Assembly (NCBI RefSeq): GCF_002837135.1
Contig: NZ_NWBQ01000056.1
Coordinates: 1 to 64,000 of the forward strand
Length of the DNA stretch: 64,000 nt
Direction: 5' to 3'
DNA from: Macromonas bipunctata
GTDB lineage: Bacteria > Pseudomonadota > Gammaproteobacteria > Burkholderiales > Burkholderiaceae_C
The stretch's first letter is position 1, and each line of letters opens with the position of its first letter. A model generated the notes under the pieces. It saw only the letters and a list, made by a program, of their open reading frames with translations. It did not search any database and was not told the DNA's origin. The translations under genes were made by a program, and so were the position numbers. Shown in pieces: positions 4,349-16,802 of the stretch.

Positions 4349-4430
4349 CGCCTTCGACCCAGCAAATCGCCAGGCGAAAACAGAGGAAGTTGAAGGGGCC
4401 GCTGCCTTGGGCACTTCTATACTCGCGGCC

Positions 4431-5114
4431 ATGAACCAGCGCGTACATTCCCCGACCGGCACCACCCCGCAACGCCGCAGCAGCAAAGAACCGGGCCGCA
4501 CCAACGACCCCGAACGCACCAAGGCCAACATCCTGGCCGTGGCGGCGCAGGAGTTCGGCGCCAAGGGGCTGGCCGGAGCGCGCATCGACGAAATCGCCGC
4601 CGCCACGCACACCAGCAAGCGCATGATCTACTACTACTTCGGCAGCAAGGAGGGCCTGTACCTCGCGGTGCTGGAGGAGTCGTACCGCAGCGTGCGCAAC
4701 ATCGAGGCCCAGCTCCACCTCAACGACCTGGCCCCCGAAGCGGCCCTGCGCACCCTGGTGGGCTTCACCTTTGACCACCACCTGGCGCACGAGAACTACA
4801 TCCGGCTCGTGATGTCGGAAAACATCCACCAGGGCCAGTACCTGGCGCAAAGCCCGCGCATCCAGGAGCTCAACGTGCCCGCCATTTCGGCCATCCGGCA
4901 CCTGTACGAACGCGGCGTGGCGCAGGGCGTGTTCCGCCCCGGCCTCGATCCGGTGGACATCCACGCCTCCATCTCGGCGCTGTCGTTCTTCAACGTCGCC
5001 AACCGGCACACCTTTGGCCTGATCTTCAAGCTCGACATGCAGGATCCGGCCTACATTGCGCGCCGCCGCGAGAGCGTGATCGAGATGGTGGTGCGCTTCG
5101 TGCGCCTGCCCTAA
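4431..5114 (+). CDS. TetR/AcrR-family transcriptional regulator
   Basis: DNA-binding repressor of 227 residues. After a basic N-terminal tail comes the TetR helix-turn-helix at roughly residues 23-68, with ILAVAAQEFGAKGLAGARI then AAATHTSKRMIYYYFGSKEGLY; the rest is an all-helical ligand domain. I start at ATG 4431, though a TTG lies 24 bp upstream. A TATACT box at 4418-4423 is only 7 bp before the ATG, so a leaderless transcript is possible, although no good -35 is seen. The gene lies 93 bp upstream of dctQMP-aroQ-aroE, whose promoter carries a TetR-type palindrome, and a related site precedes the HPPD-like gene, so it probably controls both units (inference). Confidence 0.9.
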   Translation: MNQRVHSPTGTTPQRRSSKEPGRTNDPERTKANILAVAAQEFGAKGLAGARIDEIAAATHTSKRMIYYYFGSKEGLYLAVLEESYRSVRNIEAQLHLNDLAPEAALRTLVGFTFDHHLAHENYIRLVMSENIHQGQYLAQSPRIQELNVPAISAIRHLYERGVAQGVFRPGLDPVDIHASISALSFFNVANRHTFGLIFKLDMQDPAYIARRRESVIEMVVRFVRLP

Positions 5115-5167
5115 AACCATCCCCTCGCAGCCATGCGATGTTAGGGTTTGTCCCAGCACAACAAAAA

Positions 5168-5185
5168 CTAACCAGTTCGTACAAT
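5168..5185. promoter_or_regulatory. Putative TetR operator and -10 box upstream of dctQ
   Basis: A palindrome ACTAACCAGTTCGT at 5167-5180 fits the TetR-type pattern ACnAACnnGTTnGT with all fixed bases symmetric. It runs into TACAAT at 5180-5185, a plausible -10 box. A related 15-mer, TAACCGTTTGGTACA, lies before the HPPD-like gene (12 of 15 bases match). The binding protein is inferred to be the TetR encoded just upstream. Confidence 0.6.
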
Positions 5186-5207
5186 ACGCCCCATTCAGGA
5201 GATGCCC

Positions 5208-5738
5208 ATGCTTGACAAACCTATCGAATACCTGGCGCGGCTGCTGTCGCTGCTGATGGTGGCGGCGCTGGCCTTGATGGTGGTGCTGGTGTTCACCAAC
5301 GTCGTGCTGCGCTACGCCTTCAACTCCGGCCTCACGCTGTCGGAGGAACTCTCGCGCTGGCTGTTCGTGTGGATGACGTTCATGGGCGCCTTTGTGGGCC
5401 TGCGCGACAAGGGCCACCTCGGCACCGACGCACTGGTGGCACGCCTGCCGCTGGCTGGCCAGAAGGTGTGCTTCGCCATCGGGCACGTGTTGATGCTGTT
5501 TTGCTGCTGGCTGATCTTCAGCGGGGCCTGGCAGCAAGTGCTCATCAACCACGACACCACCAGTCCGGTGATGGAAGTCTCGATGGCCCTCTTCTACAGC
5601 AGCGGGCTGGTGTTCTCGGTGCTGGCGGCGCTGGTGCTGTGCCACGACCTGTTCAAGCTGCTGACCGGCCAGCTCCAGCCCGGCCACCTGATTGGCGTGC
5701 GCGATTCCGACGACATGCCCCACGGCAACCCGCACTGA
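5208..5738 (+). CDS. dctQ: TRAP transporter small permease (DctQ family)
   Basis: Small membrane subunit of a TRAP transporter. The 176-residue product has four hydrophobic segments and the DctQ core with FTNVVLRYAFNSGLTLSEEL followed by RWLFVWMTFMGAFVGLRDKGHLG, around residues 28-75. ATG 5208 is chosen because CAGGAGA at 5196-5202 is well spaced for it; an ATG 6 bp earlier overlaps that site. It is the first gene of a likely operon dctQ-dctM-dctP-aroQ-aroE that ends at the terminator at 9527-9549. Quinate, shikimate or a related acid is the inferred substrate. Confidence 0.9.
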   Translation: MLDKPIEYLARLLSLLMVAALALMVVLVFTNVVLRYAFNSGLTLSEELSRWLFVWMTFMGAFVGLRDKGHLGTDALVARLPLAGQKVCFAIGHVLMLFCCWLIFSGAWQQVLINHDTTSPVMEVSMALFYSSGLVFSVLAALVLCHDLFKLLTGQLQPGHLIGVRDSDDMPHGNPH

Positions 5739-5763
5739 AGCCCCTCACAAGAGATCACCCACC

Positions 5764-7044
5764 ATGACGATTGCAATTTTCCTGGGGGCGCTGCTCGGTG
5801 CCATGGCGCTGGGCATCCCGATCGCGTTCTCGCTGCTGCTGTGCGGCGCGGCGCTGATGTGGCACATGGACATGTTCGACGCGCAGATCCTGGCGCAGAA
5901 CGTGATCGAGGGCAGCAACAGCTTTCCGCTGCTGGCCGTGCCCTTCTTCATGCTGGCGGGCGAGATCATGAACGCAGGCGGCCTGTCGCGGCGCATCGTG
6001 CACTTTGCCATGACGCTGGTGGGCCACGTCAAGGGCGGCCTGGGCTACGTGGGCATCATGGCCGCCATCATCATGGCCTCGCTGTCGGGCTCGGCGGTGG
6101 CCGATGCCGCCGCCCTGGCCGCGCTGCTGCTGCCCATGATGCAGCGTGCGGGCTACGACCCGGCGCGCTCGGCCGGGCTGCTGTCGGCCTCCAGCATCAT
6201 CGCCCCCATCATTCCGCCATCGATTGGTTTTGTCATCTTCGGCGTGGCCTCGGGGGTGTCGGTGTCCAAGCTGTTCATGGCGGGCATTGCGCCAGGCATC
6301 ATGCTGGGTGCGGCGCTGTGGTTCACGTGGTGGCTGCTGGTGCGCAGCGAAAAAATCGAGGCCGCCCCGCGCGCCAGCAAGACCGAGGTGCTGCGCGCCT
6401 TCAAGGACGCCACCTTCGCGCTGGTGCTGCCGGTGATCGTGGTGGTGGGCCTGAAGTTCGGTGTCTTCACCCCGACCGAGGCTGCCGTGGTGGCCGCGGT
6501 GTACGCGCTGTTCATCTCCACCGTGGTGTACGGCGAGCTCAAGCTCAACCAGCTCTACGGGCTGTTCCTGGCGGCGGCCAAGACCACCTCCGTCATCATG
6601 TTCCTCGTCGCTGCGGCCATGGTGTCGGCCTGGATGATCACGGTGGCCGACCTGCCGTCCACCCTGGTCACGCTGCTGGAGCCACTGCTCGACAGCCCGC
6701 GCCTGCTGATGCTGGCCATCATGGTGCTCATCATCCTGATCGGCACCGCCATGGACATGACGCCCACCATCCTGATCCTGACCCCGGTGCTCATGCCCAT
6801 CGTCAAGGCCGCGGGCATCGACCCGGTGTACTTCGGCGTCATGTTCATGATCAACACGGCCATCGGCCTCATCACCCCACCTGTGGGCACGGTGCTGAGC
6901 ACGGTGGCGGGCGTGGGCAAGATCCGCATGGACGCGGTGGTCAAGGGCGTGTGGCCCTTCATGCTGGCCCAGTTTGCGCTGCTGCTGCTGATGGTGCTGT
7001 TCCCCCAGCTGGTGATGGTGCCCGCACGCTGGTTCTACAGCTGA
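5764..7044 (+). CDS. dctM: TRAP transporter large permease (DctM family)
   Basis: Large permease subunit, 426 residues, with about a dozen membrane segments. Family motifs are visible: PFFMLAGEIMNAGGLSRRIV, SLSGSAVADAAALAALLLPMM, IIAPIIPPSIGFVIFGVASG and INTAIGLITPPVGTVLSTVAG. The start at ATG 5764 follows AAGAGATCACCCACC and gives a clean first helix. It is a second, distinct DctM compared with the one at 455-1753 and, unlike it, sits in a complete Q-M-P set. Confidence 0.94.
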   Translation: MTIAIFLGALLGAMALGIPIAFSLLLCGAALMWHMDMFDAQILAQNVIEGSNSFPLLAVPFFMLAGEIMNAGGLSRRIVHFAMTLVGHVKGGLGYVGIMAAIIMASLSGSAVADAAALAALLLPMMQRAGYDPARSAGLLSASSIIAPIIPPSIGFVIFGVASGVSVSKLFMAGIAPGIMLGAALWFTWWLLVRSEKIEAAPRASKTEVLRAFKDATFALVLPVIVVVGLKFGVFTPTEAAVVAAVYALFISTVVYGELKLNQLYGLFLAAAKTTSVIMFLVAAAMVSAWMITVADLPSTLVTLLEPLLDSPRLLMLAIMVLIILIGTAMDMTPTILILTPVLMPIVKAAGIDPVYFGVMFMINTAIGLITPPVGTVLSTVAGVGKIRMDAVVKGVWPFMLAQFALLLLMVLFPQLVMVPARWFYS

Positions 7045-7082
7045 TTCACAATGTTCGAGTTTTTTTCACTGGAGACAACATC

Positions 7083-8084
7083 ATGAAACGTCTGTTCCTC
7101 AAAACCCTGGTGGCCAGCGTGGCCCTGGCCTGCGTGGGCGTGGCATCGGCCCAGACCAAGACCATCAAGTTCGCGACCCAGAACCCCAAGGGCCACCCGC
7201 TGGTCATGGGCATGGAAAAGTTCAAGAGCCTGGTCGAGGCCCAGTCCGGCGGCCAGCTCAAGGTCAACCTGTTCCCCGGCGGCACGCTGGGCAGCGACCA
7301 GGCCAACGTCTCGGCCCTGCAAGGCGGCACGCTGGAAATGGTGACCATGAACTCCGGCATCCTGTCCAACCAAGTCAAGGAATTTGCGGTGTGGGACTTT
7401 CCCTTCATGTTCAACAACAGCAAGGAAGCCGATGCCGTCATCGACGGCCCCTTTGGCCAGAGCATGCACAAAAAGCTTGAAGCCAAGGGCCTGATGGGCC
7501 TGGCCTACTACGAGCTGGGTTTCCGCCACATCACCAACAGCAAGCGCCCCATCAGCAAACTCGAAGACCTGGAAGGCCTCAAGCTGCGCGTGATCCCCAA
7601 CCCCATCAACGTGGACTGGGTCAAGGCGCTGGGTGCCAACCCCACCCCGCTGCCGTTCCCGGAGCTGTACGGTGCGCTGGAGCAAAAAGCCATCGACGGG
7701 CAGGAAAACCCCGTTTCGGTGATCCTGGCCAACAAGCTCTACGAAGTGCAAAAACACCTGGTGCTGAGCAACCACCAGTACAACCCGCAATCGGTGCTCA
7801 TCAGCAAGAAGTTCTGGGACAAGCTGACCCCGGCCCAGCAAAAGATCGTGGCCGATGCGGCCAAGGAATCGGCCAGGTACCAGCGTGAACAAGCACGCGG
7901 CCAGGTGGCCGGTGCGTTGGCAGAGCTGAAGAAAAACGGCATGCAAGTCACCGAACTGCCCATGACCGAAGTGGCCAAGCTGCGCGACAAGATGCGCACC
8001 GTGACCGCCAAGTACGCCGTCAACGCGGGCCAGGACACCGTGCAGGCCCTGCAGGCCGAACTGGCCAAGGTGCGCGGCAAGTAA
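7083..8084 (+). CDS. dctP: TRAP transporter substrate-binding protein (DctP family)
   Basis: Periplasmic solute receptor of the TRAP system, 333 residues. It has a signal peptide (MKRLF, hydrophobic core, cleavage expected after GVASA near residue 23), then KFATQNPKGHPLVMGMEKF. The DctP core LKLRVIPNPINVDWVKALGANPTPLPFPELYGALEQKAIDGQENPV contains the Arg that binds the substrate carboxylate in this family (LKLRV). ATG 7083 follows GGAGACAACATC. The neighbours dehydroquinase and shikimate dehydrogenase suggest a cyclic hydroxy acid as ligand, but the family binds many acids. Confidence 0.93.
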   Translation: MKRLFLKTLVASVALACVGVASAQTKTIKFATQNPKGHPLVMGMEKFKSLVEAQSGGQLKVNLFPGGTLGSDQANVSALQGGTLEMVTMNSGILSNQVKEFAVWDFPFMFNNSKEADAVIDGPFGQSMHKKLEAKGLMGLAYYELGFRHITNSKRPISKLEDLEGLKLRVIPNPINVDWVKALGANPTPLPFPELYGALEQKAIDGQENPVSVILANKLYEVQKHLVLSNHQYNPQSVLISKKFWDKLTPAQQKIVADAAKESARYQREQARGQVAGALAELKKNGMQVTELPMTEVAKLRDKMRTVTAKYAVNAGQDTVQALQAELAKVRGK

Positions 8085-8135
8085 GCCGTCGCCTGCTCTT
8101 TTCCTCGGCGCCCTTCCCTTTTTCTCTGCTCTGCC

Positions 8136-8597
8136 ATGCAAAAAATCCTGCTCCTCAACGGCCCCAACCTCAACCTGCTGGGCACCCGCGAACCGCAACA
8201 GTACGGCCACACCACGCTGGCCGACGTTGAAGCCAGCTTCAGCGCCGCCGCCGCCCGGCACGGCTACGAGGCCGAATGCTTCCAGAGCAACTGGGAAGGC
8301 GCGCTGCTGGACAAGATCCACGAATATGGCCGCCTGTACAAGGCCGGGCAAGCACTGGGTTGCGTGTTCAACCCCGGCGCGTTCACGCACACCTCGATTG
8401 CACTGCACGACGCCATCAAAGGCGTGGACGGTCTGCCAGTGATCGAGTGCCACATCTCCAACGTTCACGCACGCGAAGCGTTTCGCCACCACAGCTGGGT
8501 GTCGCCCGCTGCGGCGGGCATCGTCATCGGGTTTGGCGTGGATGGCTACCTGATCGCGCTGGACGGGCTGGTGCGCAAGTTCGGCGCTGTGGCCTGA
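8136..8597 (+). CDS. aroQ: Type II 3-dehydroquinate dehydratase
   Basis: Converts 3-dehydroquinate to 3-dehydroshikimate in the cytosol. The 153-residue protein matches the small dodecameric type II enzyme: LLLNGPNLNLLGTREPQQYG at the N-terminus holds the catalytic Arg and Tyr of the flexible loop, then SNWEGALLDKIHE, FNPGAFTHTSIALHDAI and IECHISNVHAREAFRHHS with the catalytic His. The family more often reads NPAAYTHTS, so the G and F here are slightly unusual. Position between dctP and an AroE-like gene points to catabolic use (a QuiB role) rather than aromatic amino acid synthesis; that is inference. Confidence 0.94.
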   Translation: MQKILLLNGPNLNLLGTREPQQYGHTTLADVEASFSAAAARHGYEAECFQSNWEGALLDKIHEYGRLYKAGQALGCVFNPGAFTHTSIALHDAIKGVDGLPVIECHISNVHAREAFRHHSWVSPAAAGIVIGFGVDGYLIALDGLVRKFGAVA

Positions 8598-8629
8598 CCC
8601 CCTTTTTTTCCTCCAACACCCCCACCGCC

Positions 8630-9466
8630 ATGCACATCAACGGCCACACCGAGATCATTGCCCACATCGGCTACCCGACGCACAGCTTCAAGTCGCCGAT
8701 GATCTACAACCCGTACTTCGAGCACATCGGGGCCAACGTGGTGGTGGTGCCCATGGGCTGTCAGGCACCGGACTACCCGGCGTTCCTGCGCTCGGTGTTT
8801 GCGCTGACCAACATCCGGGGTGCGCTCATCACCATGCCGCACAAAGTCACCACCGTGGGGTTGCTGGATGCAGTCACGCCCACCGTGCGCGTGGCCGGAG
8901 CCTGCAACGCCGTCAAGCGGCTGCCCGATGGCCGCCTGGTGGGCGACATGTTCGATGGTGCTGGTTTTGTGCGTGGCGTACAACGCAAGGGCCTGAATTT
9001 GCAAGGGGCCAAGGTACTGGTCGTGGGGTGTGGGGGCGTAGGTTCTGCCATTGTGGCCTCGCTGGCTGGGGCGGGCATTGCGGCCATCACCCTGTTCGAT
9101 GTGAACAGCGCCAGCGCCACCGCGCTGGCACAGCGCATCCAACAACATTACCCACACATTGCTGTCCACACCGGCAGCAATGACCCGGTGGGCTGTGATT
9201 TGGTGGTCAACGCCACCCCCATGGGCATGAACGAAGGCGACCCCCTGCCGCTGGACGTGGAACGCCTGTCGCCCCACACTTTTGTGGGCGAGGTGGTGAT
9301 GCGCACCGAAATGACCGCCTTCCTGCAAGCGGCGCAGCAACGTGGTTGCGCCATCCAGGTCGGGGCCGACATGCTGTTCGAGCAAATTCCGGCCTACCTG
9401 GAATACTTTGACCTGCCCACCACCACCGCCGAGCAACTGCGGGCGCTGGCACGTCTGGCATACTGA
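8630..9466 (+). CDS. Shikimate/quinate 5-dehydrogenase-like protein (AroE family)
   Basis: The 278-residue oxidoreductase has an AroE substrate domain and a Rossmann domain. The N-terminal serine motif reads THSFKSP rather than the usual HSLSP. The catalytic Lys in ITMPHK, the Asn in AGACNAV and the Asp in FDGAGF are kept. The nucleotide site VVGCGGVGSAIVASLAGAGI is followed by LFDVNSAS: an Asp ends strand two, where NADP enzymes have NRT. That favours NAD and a catabolic quinate/shikimate role, converting shikimate to 3-dehydroshikimate (inference from family knowledge). A terminator begins 60 bp after its stop, so it is probably the last gene of the dctQMP operon. Confidence 0.85.
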   Translation: MHINGHTEIIAHIGYPTHSFKSPMIYNPYFEHIGANVVVVPMGCQAPDYPAFLRSVFALTNIRGALITMPHKVTTVGLLDAVTPTVRVAGACNAVKRLPDGRLVGDMFDGAGFVRGVQRKGLNLQGAKVLVVGCGGVGSAIVASLAGAGIAAITLFDVNSASATALAQRIQQHYPHIAVHTGSNDPVGCDLVVNATPMGMNEGDPLPLDVERLSPHTFVGEVVMRTEMTAFLQAAQQRGCAIQVGADMLFEQIPAYLEYFDLPTTTAEQLRALARLAY

Positions 9467-9526
9467 CCTTCGCGCCTGCCGGCGTGGGGTTCTGCCCCGC
9501 GCACGGGCGGCTTCTGTTGTTTCAAC

Positions 9527-9549
9527 GCCCGCTATACGCGGGCTTTTTT
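9527..9549 (+). terminator. Intrinsic terminator after aroE-like gene
   Basis: Perfect stem GCCCGC (9527-9532) / GCGGGC (9538-9543), loop TATAC, followed by six T at 9544-9549. It ends only 6 bp before the AEC permease ATG at 9556, so it both closes the upstream operon and overlaps where the next gene's ribosome site should be. Confidence 0.85.
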
Positions 9550-9555
9550 GCCACC

Positions 9556-10491
9556 ATGCTGCACATCCTCTCCATCACCTCGCCCATTTTTTTGCTGATT
9601 GCCGTGGGCTATCTGGCCGTCTGGCGCGGCATCTTCAAGCGCGAGGACATGCAAGTGCTGGGCAAACTGCTGGTGGACTTTCTGTTGCCCGCACTGGTGT
9701 GCCGCGCCATCACGCAGTTCCCGCTGCACGAGGTGCTCAACGTGCGCTACCTGGCGGCCTACGGTGCTGGGTCGGCGGTGGCGTTGCTGGCGGGCGTGTT
9801 GTACGGACGCTGGCGCGGCATGCCTTGGCCGCAGGCGGCACTGACGGGCATGGGGTTGTCGGCCTCCAACACCGTGTTCGTGGGCTTCCCGATCGTGAGC
9901 GAACTGCTGGGCCCCAGCGCCGCCATCGCCATGACGCTGGGCGTGCTGGTGGAAAACCTGCTGGTGGTGCCGGTCGTGCTGGTGTTGGCCGGGCGCGATG
10001 CCGACCTGCCGTGGCAACGCTCGCTGGTGCAATCGTTGCGTACACTGGCACGCAACCCCATCATCTGGTCGATCGTGGTCGGTGTCACCTGTTCGGCACT
10101 GGAACTCAAGTTGCCCTACGTGCTGGACCGCAGTTTGCACATCACCGGCTCGGCGGCGGCGGGCGTGGCGCTGCTGATGATTGGTGGCGTGCTGGTGGGC
10201 CAGCGGCTGCAAGACGTGAAATTGGATTTGCCGGTGGTGGTGGGCGGCAAACTGGTGCTGCACCCGCTGTGCGTGCTGCTGGCGCTCACGCTGCTGCCGC
10301 CGTTGAGCCCCACGCTGCACCAGGCCGCCATCCTGTACGCCTGCATGCCACTGCCGGCGCTGTTTTCAGCCTTGGCGCAACGGCTGGGCCACGGTGGCTA
10401 CGCCGCCACCTTGCTGGTGGCCTCCACCGTGGCGGCGTTCTTCACCGTCAACGCCTGGATCTGGCTGGTGACCCAAGTGCTGGTGACTTAA
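9556..10491 (+). CDS. AEC (auxin efflux carrier) family transporter
   Basis: Integral membrane carrier of 311 residues with about ten hydrophobic segments and the family start LHILSITSPIFLLIAVGYLAVWRGIF. Further features are the loop VDFLLPALVCRAI, GLSASNTVFVGFPI and LARNPIIWSIVVGV. AEC permeases move small organic acids; the substrate here is unknown, although the shikimate-type neighbours suggest a related acid. ATG 9556 gives the canonical N-terminus, but no ribosome binding site is seen because a terminator hairpin occupies 9527-9549. Its stop overlaps that of the convergent dehydratase gene by 3 bp (TTAA). Confidence 0.88.
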   Translation: MLHILSITSPIFLLIAVGYLAVWRGIFKREDMQVLGKLLVDFLLPALVCRAITQFPLHEVLNVRYLAAYGAGSAVALLAGVLYGRWRGMPWPQAALTGMGLSASNTVFVGFPIVSELLGPSAAIAMTLGVLVENLLVVPVVLVLAGRDADLPWQRSLVQSLRTLARNPIIWSIVVGVTCSALELKLPYVLDRSLHITGSAAAGVALLMIGGVLVGQRLQDVKLDLPVVVGGKLVLHPLCVLLALTLLPPLSPTLHQAAILYACMPLPALFSALAQRLGHGGYAATLLVASTVAAFFTVNAWIWLVTQVLVT

Positions 10492-11396
10492 AGCGGGGTT
10501 TTCAGGCGCATTTGGTTGGGCAAGGGCACCGATCGGCGCAGCACGTCCTCGGCCAACCACAGCGCCGATTTACGTGCGCGTTCGGCCACCGTGGGCAAAG
10601 GCATCTGCTGGTAATCGTCGTTGAACACCTCAAAACTGTAATCGCCGGTATAGCCCAGGTTGTCGAGCTTGAGCACCAGTTGCGCCAGTTGTTCACTGTG
10701 TACGCCCTCACCCGGAAACACGCGGAACGTGCGTGCGGTGGTGATGCGTTCTTCAAAAGTACGCGTTTCCTGCCACATGAAGTCGGCCAACTGCACCAGA
10801 AAAATTTTGTCTGGATCGAGGTAGTCGATTTCCTCCAGCGGCGTTTTGGCGGCAAAAATGTGGAACGAGTCGATACCCAGCCCCAGGTTGGGGCAATCGG
10901 CGCGGCACACCACGTCCCACGCGCTGGTGAATTCGTTGATGGTGCGGCCCCAAGACAGTCCCTCATAAGCGATCTTGATACCCAACGGCACCGCCAGCAT
11001 GGCCAATTTGCGCAAATCGCGCGCAATGTGGTCCACATCCGCGCTGGCGTGTACCGACGTGGACGAACATGCCAGCAGCACCTTGCAACCCAGCGCCGCG
11101 CACATTTCCAGCATGCTCTTGGCAATGTCCACCTTGTAGTGGTGCAAATGCCCGCTCAAGCCCTCAAAATCGCGCAGCACCTGAAAGCCTGTGCCGCGCA
11201 AGCCGCTGTCGTGTACCGCCTGCACCGCCGCACGCCAGCCGTTGGGGTGCCCCACCAAGTCGTTGGCCTTGAGCATCACTTGCGAGAACCCAGCTTCCTT
11301 CATGGCCGCCAGCTTGGCCTCCAGCGGCCCCGCCAGCGTGATGGTGTCCATGCCAAAGCCCGCCATGGCGGGCACCGTGTTGCGTGGATGGCTCAT
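10488..11396 (-). CDS. 3-dehydroshikimate dehydratase-like protein (sugar phosphate isomerase/epimerase fold)
   Basis: The 302-residue TIM-barrel protein belongs to the AP-endonuclease-2-like isomerase family. Likely metal ligands are the Glu in IAYEGLSWGRTINEF, the Asp and His in LGIDSFHIFA, the Gln in VQLADF and the Glu in YSFEVFND. These, with FRVFPGEGVH, match bacterial 3-dehydroshikimate dehydratases (QuiC/AsbF type) that make protocatechuate. In Pseudomonas putida QuiC1 this domain is fused to a C-terminal HPPD-like domain; here it ends at the normal domain boundary and the HPPD-like part is a separate gene 3 bp upstream. Context with aroQ and an AroE-like gene supports the function. 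Confidence 0.8.
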   Translation of the reverse strand: MSHPRNTVPAMAGFGMDTITLAGPLEAKLAAMKEAGFSQVMLKANDLVGHPNGWRAAVQAVHDSGLRGTGFQVLRDFEGLSGHLHHYKVDIAKSMLEMCAALGCKVLLACSSTSVHASADVDHIARDLRKLAMLAVPLGIKIAYEGLSWGRTINEFTSAWDVVCRADCPNLGLGIDSFHIFAAKTPLEEIDYLDPDKIFLVQLADFMWQETRTFEERITTARTFRVFPGEGVHSEQLAQLVLKLDNLGYTGDYSFEVFNDDYQQMPLPTVAERARKSALWLAEDVLRRSVPLPNQMRLKTPL

Positions 11397-11399
11397 GGT

Positions 11400-12326
11400 T
11401 CAACCCTCCTCGCGTGCGGTTTCGCTGTGAACCAGCTCAAACACCACCGACCCCAAATACGTCTTGCTGATGGCTCCGCGCGGTTCGCTGTGTGCAGCTT
11501 GGGTTTCCACAAACTCCACCCCCAAAGCACGCAACGCGTTCACCGCGGCCAACACATCGGGGACACCCAGACCAATGCGCTGCAAACGCTCTTGCGCATC
11601 CATCACGTTCACGTCCGGCTCAATCAGCTGAACCATGAAGCGGTGTGCCGGATGGAGCGCCGGTGTGCGCAACAACTTGCCCTTGGGCATGATGCCAAAA
11701 CGTTGCTCATCCGGAATCAGCTCGGCACCAAACAACTCATGGTAAAACTCCATCCAATCGTAGCTGCGCTCCGGGCCGATGTACTGAACCACCCCAAAAA
11801 AGTGGATACCGGCGGTGGCGGGCGGGTGTTGATCCACCGACGGAATCGGCACAAAATCCACATCGTAAATCGAGAATTCCTTGTAGCGGTCCACAAAATA
11901 AATGCGGCTCCCGCCCGCGCCGTGAATAGCCGGGATGTTGAGCTCCATCACCTCGGCCCGCGTGGGCACTTCCCAAGCCCCACGCTCCAGCACGTAGTCG
12001 TAGGCGGCACGCGCATCCCGCACCCGCAAAGCCATGGCCGAAATGCGTGGTACAGAGCCACCATGCGTAGCGCCTTGCACATCCTGCGGATGCGCATTCA
12101 CCACCACATTCAAATCCCCTTGGCGGTACAACAACACCTCGCGCGAGCGGTGCCGCGCCACGGGCCGGAATCCCATCATCTCCAACACTTGCCCCAGCGC
12201 CTGCGGCTGTGTGGTGGCGTACTCCACAAACTCAATCCCATCCAACCCAATGGGGTTGGCCGCATCGCTGAACGAAGCCTGCAAGGGCTCGCGGTTGTGA
12301 CCAGCTTTCAACAAAAAATCGCTCAT
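11400..12326 (-). CDS. HPPD-like double-VOC protein, stand-alone counterpart of the QuiC1 C-terminal domain
   Basis: The 308-residue protein has two vicinal-oxygen-chelate repeats in the style of 4-hydroxyphenylpyruvate dioxygenase: LDGIEFVEYATTQPQALGQVLEMMGF in the first, then AGIHFFGVVQYIG and VVFELVHSE in the second. The second repeat keeps the first-ligand His (GIHFF) and last-ligand Glu (FELV). At the middle ligand, where HPPD has QHIAL, this reads QRIGL, so the His appears to be Arg. True dioxygenase activity is therefore doubtful. It is the first gene of a two-gene unit with the dehydratase-like gene; AGGAGA is well placed before ATG 12326. A putative operator lies in its promoter. Confidence 0.8.
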   Translation of the reverse strand: MSDFLLKAGHNREPLQASFSDAANPIGLDGIEFVEYATTQPQALGQVLEMMGFRPVARHRSREVLLYRQGDLNVVVNAHPQDVQGATHGGSVPRISAMALRVRDARAAYDYVLERGAWEVPTRAEVMELNIPAIHGAGGSRIYFVDRYKEFSIYDVDFVPIPSVDQHPPATAGIHFFGVVQYIGPERSYDWMEFYHELFGAELIPDEQRFGIMPKGKLLRTPALHPAHRFMVQLIEPDVNVMDAQERLQRIGLGVPDVLAAVNALRALGVEFVETQAAHSEPRGAISKTYLGSVVFELVHSETAREEG

Positions 12327-12355
12327 CGTGTGTATCTCCTGTGACCGAAGTCCAC

Positions 12356-12376
12356 AATGTAACCGTTTGGTACATT
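12356..12376. promoter_or_regulatory. Putative operator in the HPPD-like gene / pgi intergenic region
   Basis: Inverted repeat AATGTA (12356-12361) / TACATT (12371-12376) around ACCGTTTGG. The core TAACCGTTTGGTACA matches TAACCAGTTCGTACA before dctQ at 12 of 15 positions, so the same TetR may bind both. It lies 30-50 bp upstream of the HPPD-like ATG on the minus strand, where a repressor would block transcription. A weak rightward promoter TTGGTA-17-TATAGC (12368-12396) for pgi overlaps it. Confidence 0.55.
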
Positions 12377-12443
12377 TTGTGGCGGCACAATATAGCCCGG
12401 ATTTACCCTAGCCCATTCAAAAAAACCATCCGGGGACACCACC

Positions 12444-14048
12444 TTGCTACCTCACGCCACCCCCTTTACCCCGCCCCAGCAGCGTGCTGCGTGGCAACAC
12501 CTGCAACAACTGGCCGCACAAGGCCTGCCCCATTTGCGCGAGCTGCTGGCCACACCAGACACCGCACGCCATACCAGTCTGCAACTGCAAGCCGCCGGGC
12601 TCCGGCTGGATGCCACGCACCAGCAAGTCACCCCCCACGTGCTGCAAGCCCTGCTGGCCCTGGCCGACGAATCCGGCGTGATGGCACAAGCGCAAGCCCA
12701 ACGCGAGGGCCAAGCCATCAACCGCACAGAACACCGCGCCGCGCTGCACGTGGCGCTGCGCGGCGGCAACCGGCCCAACCCACCTTGGGGCCAAGCTATC
12801 CAACAAGCGGTCAACCGGGAACTGGAACGCTTCCTCCGCGCGGCGGAACGCATCCGCCACGGCCAATGGCGTGGCCACCGGGGTCAGCGCATCACCGATG
12901 TGGTCAACCTGGGCATTGGCGGCTCCGACCTCGGCCCGCGCATGGCGGTGCAAGCACTCGACAGCTACACACACCCCGATGTGAAAGTTCACTTTGTCTC
13001 CAACCCGGATGCCTGGGCCTTGCATCACAAATTGCGCCGCCTGCACCCCGACCACACCCTGTTCGTGGTGCAAAGCAAAACCTTCACCACGCAAGAAACC
13101 ATGACCCTGGCCGCGTCGGCACGGCGCTGGCTGTCTGACCACGGCCTGCACAGCCACACCGAACAAGCCCCGCACCTGATCGCCGTCACCGCATCCCCCG
13201 CCCTGTCGGCGCAGCAAGGTTACGCGCCCGAACACACCTTCGGCTTCTGGGACTGGGTGGGTGGGCGCTACTCGGTCTGGTCGGCCATTGGCCTGCCATT
13301 GGCCATCGCCATCGGCGCGTCACACTTCCGCGCATTTTTGGCCGGTGGGCACGCTATGGACCAACACTTCTGGCACGCCCCCGCCGAGCACAACATGCCG
13401 CTGATGATGGCACTGCTGGGCGTGTGGAACCGTAACTTTCTGGGTTGCCCCAGCCACCTGATCGCCGCTTACGCCAGCCGGTTGTTCCACTTCGCGCGCT
13501 TTGTGCAACAACTCGACATGGAATCCAACGGCAAATCCACCCACGTGGATGGCAGCGCGGCCCAGATCGACACCGGCCCCATCGTCTGGGGTGGCTTGGG
13601 CATCGAGGGCCAGCACGCCTACTTCCAGCTGCTGCACCAAGGCCAGCACCGCGTGCCGGTCGATTTCATCGGCGTCGAAACCGAAGACACCCCGCTGCCG
13701 CTGGCCGCCGAGCACCACCGCGTGGCCCTGCTCAACCTGCGCGCCCAAGCCCGAGCCTTGGCCATCGGGCGCGATGCCGACGCCACCGCCGCCGAACTGC
13801 GCCAGCAAGGCTTGGACCAAGCACAGATTCACACCCTGCTGCCCCACCGCACCTTCCGGGGCAACGTGCCCAACGCCACCCTGTGGCTGCCCACCTTGGA
13901 TCCACACCACCTGGGCGCGCTGGTGGCGCTGTACGAGCACAAAGTGTTCTGCCAGTCGGTGCTGTGGGGCATCTACCCGTTTGACCAATGGGGCGTGGAA
14001 CTGGGCAAAACCCTGGCCCAGCAACTGGAACGCCAAGGCGAGGCCTGA
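12444..14048 (+). CDS. pgi: Glucose-6-phosphate isomerase
   Basis: Interconverts glucose 6-phosphate and fructose 6-phosphate. The 534-residue protein shows the sugar isomerase signatures NLGIGGSDLGPRMA (near residue 155), VQSKTFTTQETM, GGRYSVWSAIGLPLAIAIG and QLDMESNGK, and ends with the Pgi helix GALVALYEHKVFCQSVLWGIYPFDQWGVELGK. Length fits. The start is a TTG at 12444, as no ATG lies nearby in frame; this is somewhat uncertain. It is divergent from the HPPD-like gene and separate in function. Confidence 0.95.
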   Translation: MLPHATPFTPPQQRAAWQHLQQLAAQGLPHLRELLATPDTARHTSLQLQAAGLRLDATHQQVTPHVLQALLALADESGVMAQAQAQREGQAINRTEHRAALHVALRGGNRPNPPWGQAIQQAVNRELERFLRAAERIRHGQWRGHRGQRITDVVNLGIGGSDLGPRMAVQALDSYTHPDVKVHFVSNPDAWALHHKLRRLHPDHTLFVVQSKTFTTQETMTLAASARRWLSDHGLHSHTEQAPHLIAVTASPALSAQQGYAPEHTFGFWDWVGGRYSVWSAIGLPLAIAIGASHFRAFLAGGHAMDQHFWHAPAEHNMPLMMALLGVWNRNFLGCPSHLIAAYASRLFHFARFVQQLDMESNGKSTHVDGSAAQIDTGPIVWGGLGIEGQHAYFQLLHQGQHRVPVDFIGVETEDTPLPLAAEHHRVALLNLRAQARALAIGRDADATAAELRQQGLDQAQIHTLLPHRTFRGNVPNATLWLPTLDPHHLGALVALYEHKVFCQSVLWGIYPFDQWGVELGKTLAQQLERQGEA

Positions 14049-15764: not shown

Positions 15765-16802
15765 TCAGGCGGGTGGCTGCTGGTGCAGCCAGTCCAGCAC
15801 CCTCTCGGGCCAGGCCCAGATTTGCAACCGCCAGCGTGCCCGCCCATCCAGCGGCCCGGCAAAACCCACATGGCCACCCCAGGCGGGCTGCCACAGCGTC
15901 ACCGCCGCCGACACCTGCTGGCACGTGGGCAAACTGGCCGCCGGTACAAACGGGTCGTTGCGCGCATTGAGCAGCAACGCGGGCACCTGCACCGCCTGCA
16001 ACCCCGGCAGGGCCGAAGCGCGCTGCCAGTAGTCGTCCACGCCCGCAAAGCCGTGCAGCGGCGCGGTGAAGGCGTCATCAAAGGCGTACAGGGTGCGCGC
16101 ACGCAACGCCGCCTCCAGGTCGAACAAGCCCGGGTACTGCCGCCACTTGGCACGCGCCTTGGCACGCATGGTGTGCAGGAAGCGGCGCACGTACAGCCAG
16201 CGGTTCACACCCCGGTCCATGGCATGCCCGGCAGCGGCCACGTCCAGCGGTGCCGACACCGCCGCCACCGCCCGCACCACCTCCAGCGCGGCCTGGCCCG
16301 CCTCACCCGCCCAACGCAACAAGGCATTGCCACCCAGCGACACGCCCAGCGCGTACAGCGGGCGGCCAGGGTGCAGCTGCCGCACGCGGCGCAGCATCCA
16401 GTCGATCTCGGCAAAGTCGCCCGAATGGTAGGCGCGCGGGCCGTGGTTGATGGCGCCACCACAACCCCGGAAATGCGGCAGCACCAACGGCCAGCCGCGC
16501 TGCCGCGCCACATGGGCCAGTGCCTGCGCGTAGTGGCTCTGCGACGAGCCCTCCAGGCCATGGAACAGCACCAGGCACGGCGCCTCGGGGGTGGTGGGTG
16601 CCAGCAGGTGGTCCACCTCGACAAAATCGCCGTCGGGCGTGGCCCAGCGTTCCCGCTGCCAGCGCGGGGCCGCACCGGGGTAACGCTGCGCCCACAGCGC
16701 CGATGCCACCGTCTGCGCATGCCCGGCCCAACCGCTGCCGGAAGACGTAAAAAAACCGCCTTGCGGCGGTTCAAGCTCCGTGGGTGCCAAGGGCACGCTC
16801 AC
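15765..16802 (-). CDS. YheT-like alpha/beta hydrolase
   Basis: Alpha/beta hydrolase of 345 residues, related to E. coli YheT (UPF0017). It has the oxyanion motif [27 protein letters not shown], the nucleophile elbow [12 protein letters not shown], the acid in NARNDPFVP and the base in GGHVGF. Substrate unknown. The start is GTG 16802, in a GTGA overlap with the end of atpC. No later start exists before the conserved AGHAQT segment. Codons 11-18 are the intrinsic terminator of the atp operon (16749-16771), so expression would need read-through or an internal promoter. Confidence 0.85.
16749..16771 (-). terminator. Intrinsic terminator of the atp operon, inside the YheT-like gene
   Basis: On the minus strand AACCGCC (16771-16765) pairs with GGCGGTT (16760-16754), loop GCAA, followed by a run of seven T overlapping the stem end (16755-16749). 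It lies 28-50 bp after the atpC stop, within the first codons of the overlapping hydrolase gene. Confidence 0.85.

Follow-up and report, generated by a model that had tools for sequence, protein, structure and literature searches.

The window, by which we mean the whole 64,000-nucleotide stretch of Macromonas bipunctata DNA analysed here (contig NZ_NWBQ01000056.1, positions 1 to 64,000), contains a TetR-type regulator gene (tetR), a forward-strand operon for uptake and conversion (dctQMP-aroQ-aroE-AEC) and a reverse-strand unit of a 3-dehydroshikimate-dehydratase-like gene and an HPPD/VOC-like gene (VOC). It is very probable that the local TetR binds three operators, O1 at the start of its own gene, O2 before dctQ and O3 before VOC (Table 1), that it represses itself and both units, and that it is released by a small molecule related to the module. 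Visible in the sequence are the sites, their conservation, their co-occurrence with TetR and a constraint on the DNA at the tetR start; binding, repression, ligand and substrate are inferred.

Operators, their conservation and the regulator

An earlier note on this DNA had pointed to two 15-mers, TAACCAGTTCGTACA (O2) and TAACCGTTTGGTACA (O3), and both its coordinates and its count of 12 identical bases out of 15 are right. O2 fits the palindrome pattern ACnAACnnGTTnGT, and O3 departs from this pattern, its GTT being displaced by one base. When the common pattern TAACCNNTTNGTACA is searched with up to one mismatch in the organism's own genome (2,699,505 bases in 115 contigs), O2 and O3 are the only two matches, both with 0 mismatches, and the reversed control gives 8. 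A wider symmetrical pattern (GTACNAACNGGTTNGTAC, up to 3 mismatches) detects O2 on either strand and, apart from an unrelated position at 15944, nothing else in the window; O3 is missed. The window was also scanned with a position weight matrix (PWM) built from 57 distinct sites of other genomes, with the window's own sites excluded; these sites were gathered with the pattern TAACYNNTTNGTACA (up to one mismatch), whose fixed positions derive from the two window sites. O2 (38.8), O3 (18.5) and O1 (2.0) rank first to third, followed by the next-best position at -3.3. Dinucleotide shuffling of the window, repeated 150 times, gave a best score of 12.4 and never reached 18.5, so that O3 is beyond chance on its own score. 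An origin of the motif by chance was rejected on the own-genome pattern search, the PWM ranking and the shuffles.

Two details of the layout given earlier need adjustment. The tetR gene does lie upstream of O2, but the 93 bp quoted is the distance from the tetR stop codon to the second dctQ ATG (5208), and O2 begins 54 bp beyond that stop. The statement that no copy occurs near pxp, pgi or the ben/cat genes agrees with the PWM scan for pxp and ben/cat and fails for pgi, where O3 occupies the 117-bp divergent gap between VOC and pgi.

Conservation was assessed in 299 genomes of the family. TetR orthologs, defined by at least 54% identity (a cut chosen between two groups), are present in 94 of these genomes (113 match at E <= 1e-50, paralogs counted). 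The strict family pattern TAACYNNTTNGTACATT occurs in 43 genomes, all within the 94, and in none of the other 205 (hypergeometric 6e-26, a value overstated by treating species as independent, although the direction of the co-occurrence is plain); its reversed control has a total of one match over the 299 genomes. The strict pattern overlooks sites ending in ACAAT or ACAAA, including the window's dctQ site, and 51 of the 94 ortholog genomes are without a strict motif. A second sample, the named loci, comprises the best 80 of 562, fetched by TetR protein alignment alone, with record titles including Ramlibacter, Hydrogenophaga, Polaromonas, Acidovorax, Rhodoferax and Limnohabitans and a few from outside the family (e.g. 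Microvirga). An operator (score >20, within 170 nt) precedes dctQ in 65 of the 66 named loci with dctQ, the remaining 14 of the 80 showing no dctQ; in the single exception (L188, Microvirga) it precedes an aroE-dctQMP unit. The operator-led operon and tetR are on different contigs in two genomes (G012 and G022), more than 600 kb apart in G267 and about 7 kb apart in G180 and G182, and the operator thus stays with an operon distant from tetR, as a trans-acting repressor allows.

Some loci show other arrangements. Two strong operators share one divergent gap in L105 (G149:C46, 9591-9754), with aroE-aroQ-dehydratase-VOC on one side and dctQMP on the other. TetR relatives with similar operators nearby and other gene orders are found in L188, L190 and L192-L195, under Microvirga, Hyphomicrobiales and other Alphaproteobacteria titles.

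That the motif is a general promoter element and no operator is highly improbable. Its right half in O2 overlaps a possible -10 of dctQ (TACAAT), and the sequence TAGGGTWW is common to both promoters, but there are only two matches to the motif in 2.7 Mb, the sampled genomes that lack a TetR ortholog are without the strict motif, and one copy lies inside the coding start of tetR; the co-occurrence largely refutes this explanation. The TAGGGTWW element has two exact copies in the window (chance mean 0.53), one per promoter and each before the operator. Of the 74 strong operators in the named loci, 43 have AGGGT at 15-18 nt ahead of the PWM start and 31 have none within 70 nt. In the own genome, TAGGGTWWNYCC has 9 copies, 7 of them outside these promoters (reversed control, 1), and specificity for this regulon is not claimed for the element.

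The domain assignments of TetR are clear (PF00440, 50.5 bits; PF17938, 161.3 bits; both over cut-off), and its AlphaFold model (mean predicted local distance difference test score 91) has 3npi and RutR as nearest solved folds, and in this model the first 26 residues have no structure and, for the most part, low confidence. Of 21 aligned orthologs, 19 keep the helix-turn-helix sequence TSKRMIYYYF; the other two read TSKRMLYYYF (L066) and TSKRMIYYYY (L089). A search of the own genome with TetR (E <= 0.001) returns a single match, TetR itself. A close paralog as alternative binder was rejected on this self-match at that threshold, distant TetR proteins not being surveyed.

The start of tetR was compared among 47 of the 80 named loci, those in which the match runs from residue 1 and a start codon is present. 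TAYACT is found 5-9 nt upstream of the start codon in 42 of these 47 orthologs, and a Shine-Dalgarno-like motif accompanies 2 of 48 tetR starts compared with 43 of 63 dctM starts; the tetR message therefore looks leaderless, with O1 directly downstream of the -10 box. The reading frame opens mostly with ATG AAC ... GTA CAT. Of the 47 orthologs, 39 have GTA as codon 5 (Val), compared with 15 of 659 downstream Val codons (Fisher test), and 41 have CAT as codon 6, compared with 64 of 280 downstream His codons (Fisher test on His codons only); the window's own tetR has both. Because the N-terminus is modelled as unstructured and with low confidence, this codon conservation is best read as a constraint on the DNA. 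By its score O1 is not significant, and its assignment rests on this conservation in relatives, which makes autoregulation of tetR through O1 most likely. The earlier note overlooked O1, and also that no dehydroquinase other than aroQ is found in the genome. Palindrome-like operators at the regulator's own gene and at neighbouring targets, kept in relatives, are the mark of a TetR-family local regulon and are found here, in the case of the VOC unit in few genomes only.

In the proposed mechanism, a TetR dimer would occupy the three copies of one imperfect palindrome, O2 serving as the operator of the dctQMP-aroQ-aroE-AEC promoter and O3 as that of the VOC-dehydratase promoter. Bound TetR would block initiation by RNA polymerase; a possible -10 is overlapped by O2, and O1 is placed just downstream of the tetR -10. 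Candidate releasing ligands are quinate, shikimate, 3-dehydroquinate, 3-dehydroshikimate and protocatechuate, which the module would make or take up. Binding of such a ligand would let uptake and the two conversions, to 3-dehydroshikimate and to protocatechuate, increase together.

Several observations weigh against this mechanism. The O1 score (1.96) is attained in 21 of the 150 shuffles, and the match of O3 to the motif is poorer than that of O2 (18.5 compared with 38.8). In a consensus promoter scan, sigma-70 matches are absent from 4350-5260, 8000-8200 and 12280-12500, and the -10 boxes are therefore assigned by eye and by conservation. The VOC unit is without a TetR-type site in three genomes of the same layout (genus g51: G050, G166 and G244). 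Finally, a tight repressor would shut an operon that carries the sole dehydroquinase.

Table 1. Operators, promoter elements and genes of the window (positions are those of the whole stretch)
Feature	Sequence	Position	Strand	Remarks
Operator O2	TAACCAGTTCGTACA	5169-5183	+	Before dctQ; PWM 38.8; whole-genome pattern search
Operator O3	TAACCGTTTGGTACA	12360-12374	+	VOC/pgi divergent gap, 33 bp from VOC start codon; PWM 18.5
Operator O1	GAACCAGCGCGTACA	4433-4447	+	Within first tetR codons, across start; PWM 2.0, third-best in window
tetR		4431-5114	+	TetR-type repressor, 227 aa; PF00440 (TetR_N), PF17938 (TetR_C_29)
Likely tetR -10 box	TATACT	4418-4423	+	7 nt between box and ATG; leaderless arrangement
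Second element	TAGGGTTTGTCC	5142-5153	+	Before O2; with the 12399-12410 copy, sole exact matches in window
Second element copy	TAGGGTAAATCC	12399-12410	-	VOC sense strand
dctQ		5202-5738	+	TRAP small permease; PF04290
dctM		5764-7044	+	TRAP large permease; PF06808; YiaN-like below cut-off
dctP		7083-8084	+	TRAP solute-binding protein; PF03480; best solved relative 4p47
aroQ		8136-8597	+	Type II 3-dehydroquinate dehydratase; PF01220, TIGR01088
aroE-like		8630-9466	+	Shikimate/quinate dehydrogenase-type; PF08501; closest solved structure 4k28
AEC-family transporter		9556-10491	+	Last gene of + strand unit; PF03547
3-Dehydroshikimate dehydratase domain gene		10488-11396	-	QuiC N-terminal half; NF042435 positions 6-268
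HPPD/VOC-like gene (VOC)		11400-12326	-	QuiC C-terminal half; PF14696; NF042435 positions 290-466
pgi		12444-14048	+	Glucose-6-phosphate isomerase, divergent from VOC; PF00342

Control of the dehydratase-VOC unit

The two reverse-strand genes correspond to the halves of two-domain QuiC and, being separate, score 159.4 and 80.4 bits with NF042435, below its cut-off of 1200 bits. In the alignment of the VOC half with 1cjx, the position of the first HPPD metal histidine, among the residues that we take to be the metal ligands of 1cjx, falls on a gap. Aligned with QuiC1 (5hmq), the dehydratase half keeps, by our mapping, 7 of 8 polar active-site residues, the position of Ser206 being Ala; the eight residues were taken from PMC7442255.

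The regions upstream of VOC were compared in the 30 best matches, with the window counted in (171 genomes match VOC at E <= 1e-40, including weaker HPPD-like proteins about 36-44% identical). Four of the 30 regions, those of the window, G209, G236 and G154, contain a TetR-type site with a score over 5; the sites of G209 and G154 are in the PWM set, and the VOC sites of loci L037 and L062 have inflated scores from their place in its training set. VOC directly follows aroE in three genomes (G276, G096 and G088). In 5 of the 30 (G207, G279, G050, G166 and G244; loci L034, L035, L039, L040 and L041), VOC is preceded by a box that departs from TTCGATWATCGMA at no more than 2 positions, and such a box occurs in 42 of 7,839 background tiles; TTCGATWATCGMA is the central part of the PcaU/PcaR consensus given in PMC8222616. 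These five genomes have the five highest VOC identities to the window (84-86%), and those of g51 have clusters with the window's layout.

These counts bear on a narrower explanation, in which TetR governs nothing beyond its own gene and the dctQ operon, O3 resembles an operator by chance or serves a different protein, and an IclR/PcaU-type regulator separately controls the VOC-dehydratase unit, as it would in some relatives. The 26 units without a TetR-type site scoring above 5 and the frequency of PcaU/PcaR-like boxes speak for it. In the window itself, however, the region upstream of VOC has no PcaU-like box (best, 5 mismatches), O3 is the second-best TetR site and its score is unreached in the shuffles, and sites of this type also precede VOC in G209, G154 and G236, two of which (G209 and G154) contributed to the PWM. 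For this genome we regard the narrower explanation as unlikely and retain TetR control of both units.

The view that one local TetR serves both units is supported for this genome by the co-occurrence in 43 of 43 genomes, the operators before dctQ, also where tetR lies elsewhere, and the sole TetR match; as a general rule for the dehydratase pair it finds no support. The scan of the genome and its relatives that the earlier note had proposed gives the same picture, with the motif kept before dctQ (65/66) and before VOC in only 4/30. By these comparisons the TetR link to the dehydratase pair is lineage-specific. In a tree of VOC sequences, a clade of genus g30 (G236, G154 and G029) is supported and excludes G209 and the window, whose own placement is weak; 11 of the 29 inner branches are open, and there are four long rows. 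We infer that control of the VOC-dehydratase unit has moved between TetR and an IclR-type regulator, probably more than once.

The uptake operon and the sole dehydroquinase

By sequence, as the earlier note had recognised, the gene set is of the quinate/shikimate type, combining a type II dehydroquinase, an AroE-like dehydrogenase and a QuiC-like dehydratase, and the cluster is probably for plant cyclitol acids such as quinate and shikimate. The list of solved DctP relatives gives no indication of the TRAP substrate. The genome (G000) has two matches to the AroE family (PF08501), the second gene being on contig C39, and the AroE-like enzyme of the operon may therefore be free for catabolism.

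A single dehydroquinase, AroQ, was found in the genome, with one type II match (PF01220) and no type I match (PF01487). Dehydroquinases were counted in 79 of the 94 ortholog genomes, after 15 had been set aside for a completeness under 95 or a contamination over 5. One type II gene is present in 47 of the 79; its distance from tetR or from a strict operator is at most 10 kb in 27 of these 47, and in the other 20 the gene lies elsewhere. Type I dehydroquinase was tested in 20 genomes and found in one (G096). In G050 and G244 (genus g51) an extra operator lies directly 5' of the aroQ ATG (L093, 9390-9418, and L094, 11121-11149), leaving little room for the usual leader. In the window, the consensus scan of 8000-8200 revealed no internal aroQ promoter.

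Alternatively, the operon might serve mainly housekeeping aromatic biosynthesis through its sole aroQ, with a transporter gained in addition, in which case TetR would set the level of dehydroquinase and the TRAP substrate would be something other than quinate or shikimate. The finding of a single dehydroquinase, the closeness of the sole type II gene to tetR or to a strict operator in 27 of the 47 genomes and the operators directly ahead of aroQ in G050 and G244 favor this possibility. Nevertheless, a second gene of the AroE family is also part of the cluster, as is a 3-dehydroshikimate-dehydratase-like gene, the operator-led operons of G088 and G211 lack aroQ yet contain aroE, VOC and the dehydratase gene, and aroQ lies elsewhere in 20 of the 47 single-copy genomes. 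We consider a mainly biosynthetic role rather improbable.

Even with a catabolic role, a simple switch that is off by default is doubtful. With the sole aroQ behind the repressor, full repression would be unaffordable for a cell without a supply of aromatic amino acids. Leaky repression, a promoter of its own for aroQ or an inducer present at a basal level would each be a way out, and the last would be met by 3-dehydroquinate or 3-dehydroshikimate. More speculatively, and with perhaps a modest chance of being correct, TetR may sense one of these two intermediates, so as both to induce quinate/shikimate use and to hold the sole AroQ at a working level, with the VOC-dehydratase unit passed between TetR and IclR-type regulators, probably more than once. 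If so, a shortage of AroQ would raise 3-dehydroquinate, and repression would be lifted.

Comparison with known systems

The analysis would define an operator, and the regulator that goes with it, for an uptake-and-degradation cluster that is widespread in Comamonadaceae-type bacteria. It places the only dehydroquinase of many such cells beside or behind an apparent catabolic repressor, and suggests a case of one enzyme unit switching its regulator, the same genes elsewhere carrying PcaU-like boxes. The pathway regulators met in the literature are of LysR and IclR type; among titles and visible abstracts, with subscription papers largely outside the coverage, we met no account of quinate, shikimate or 3-dehydroshikimate dehydratase genes being regulated by a TetR protein.

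RutR, the pyrimidine regulator of E. coli, is the top-ranked characterised regulator in the fold search and has the same TetR architecture, with 22-24% identity over the fold. RutR controls other genes, and the present TetR lies far below the RutR family threshold (TIGR03613, 44.8 compared with 368 bits). The fold search gives no clue to the ligand beyond RutR.

The IclR-family regulators PcaU and PcaR control protocatechuate genes, and boxes resembling their consensus (PMC8222616) precede the orthologous VOC unit in 5 of 30 genomes, whereas in this genome a TetR-type operator stands before VOC and no such box is present. Both halves of the two-domain dehydratases QuiC1 (Pseudomonas putida) and QsuB are present here, as two genes; the role of the HPPD-like half is also open in the fused proteins, according to PMC7442255.

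A likeness in organization is also seen to QsuR-qsuABCD of Corynebacterium glutamicum, in which a single local regulator likewise serves both uptake and use of quinate and shikimate. QsuR is a LysR-type regulator that responds to chorismate, according to PMC11258901, and this offers a precedent for a biosynthetic metabolite as the effector of a quinate/shikimate regulator. In contrast to the QsuR system, the regulator of the cluster described here is a TetR-type repressor, there is a transporter of the TRAP family, and the dehydratase is divided between two genes.

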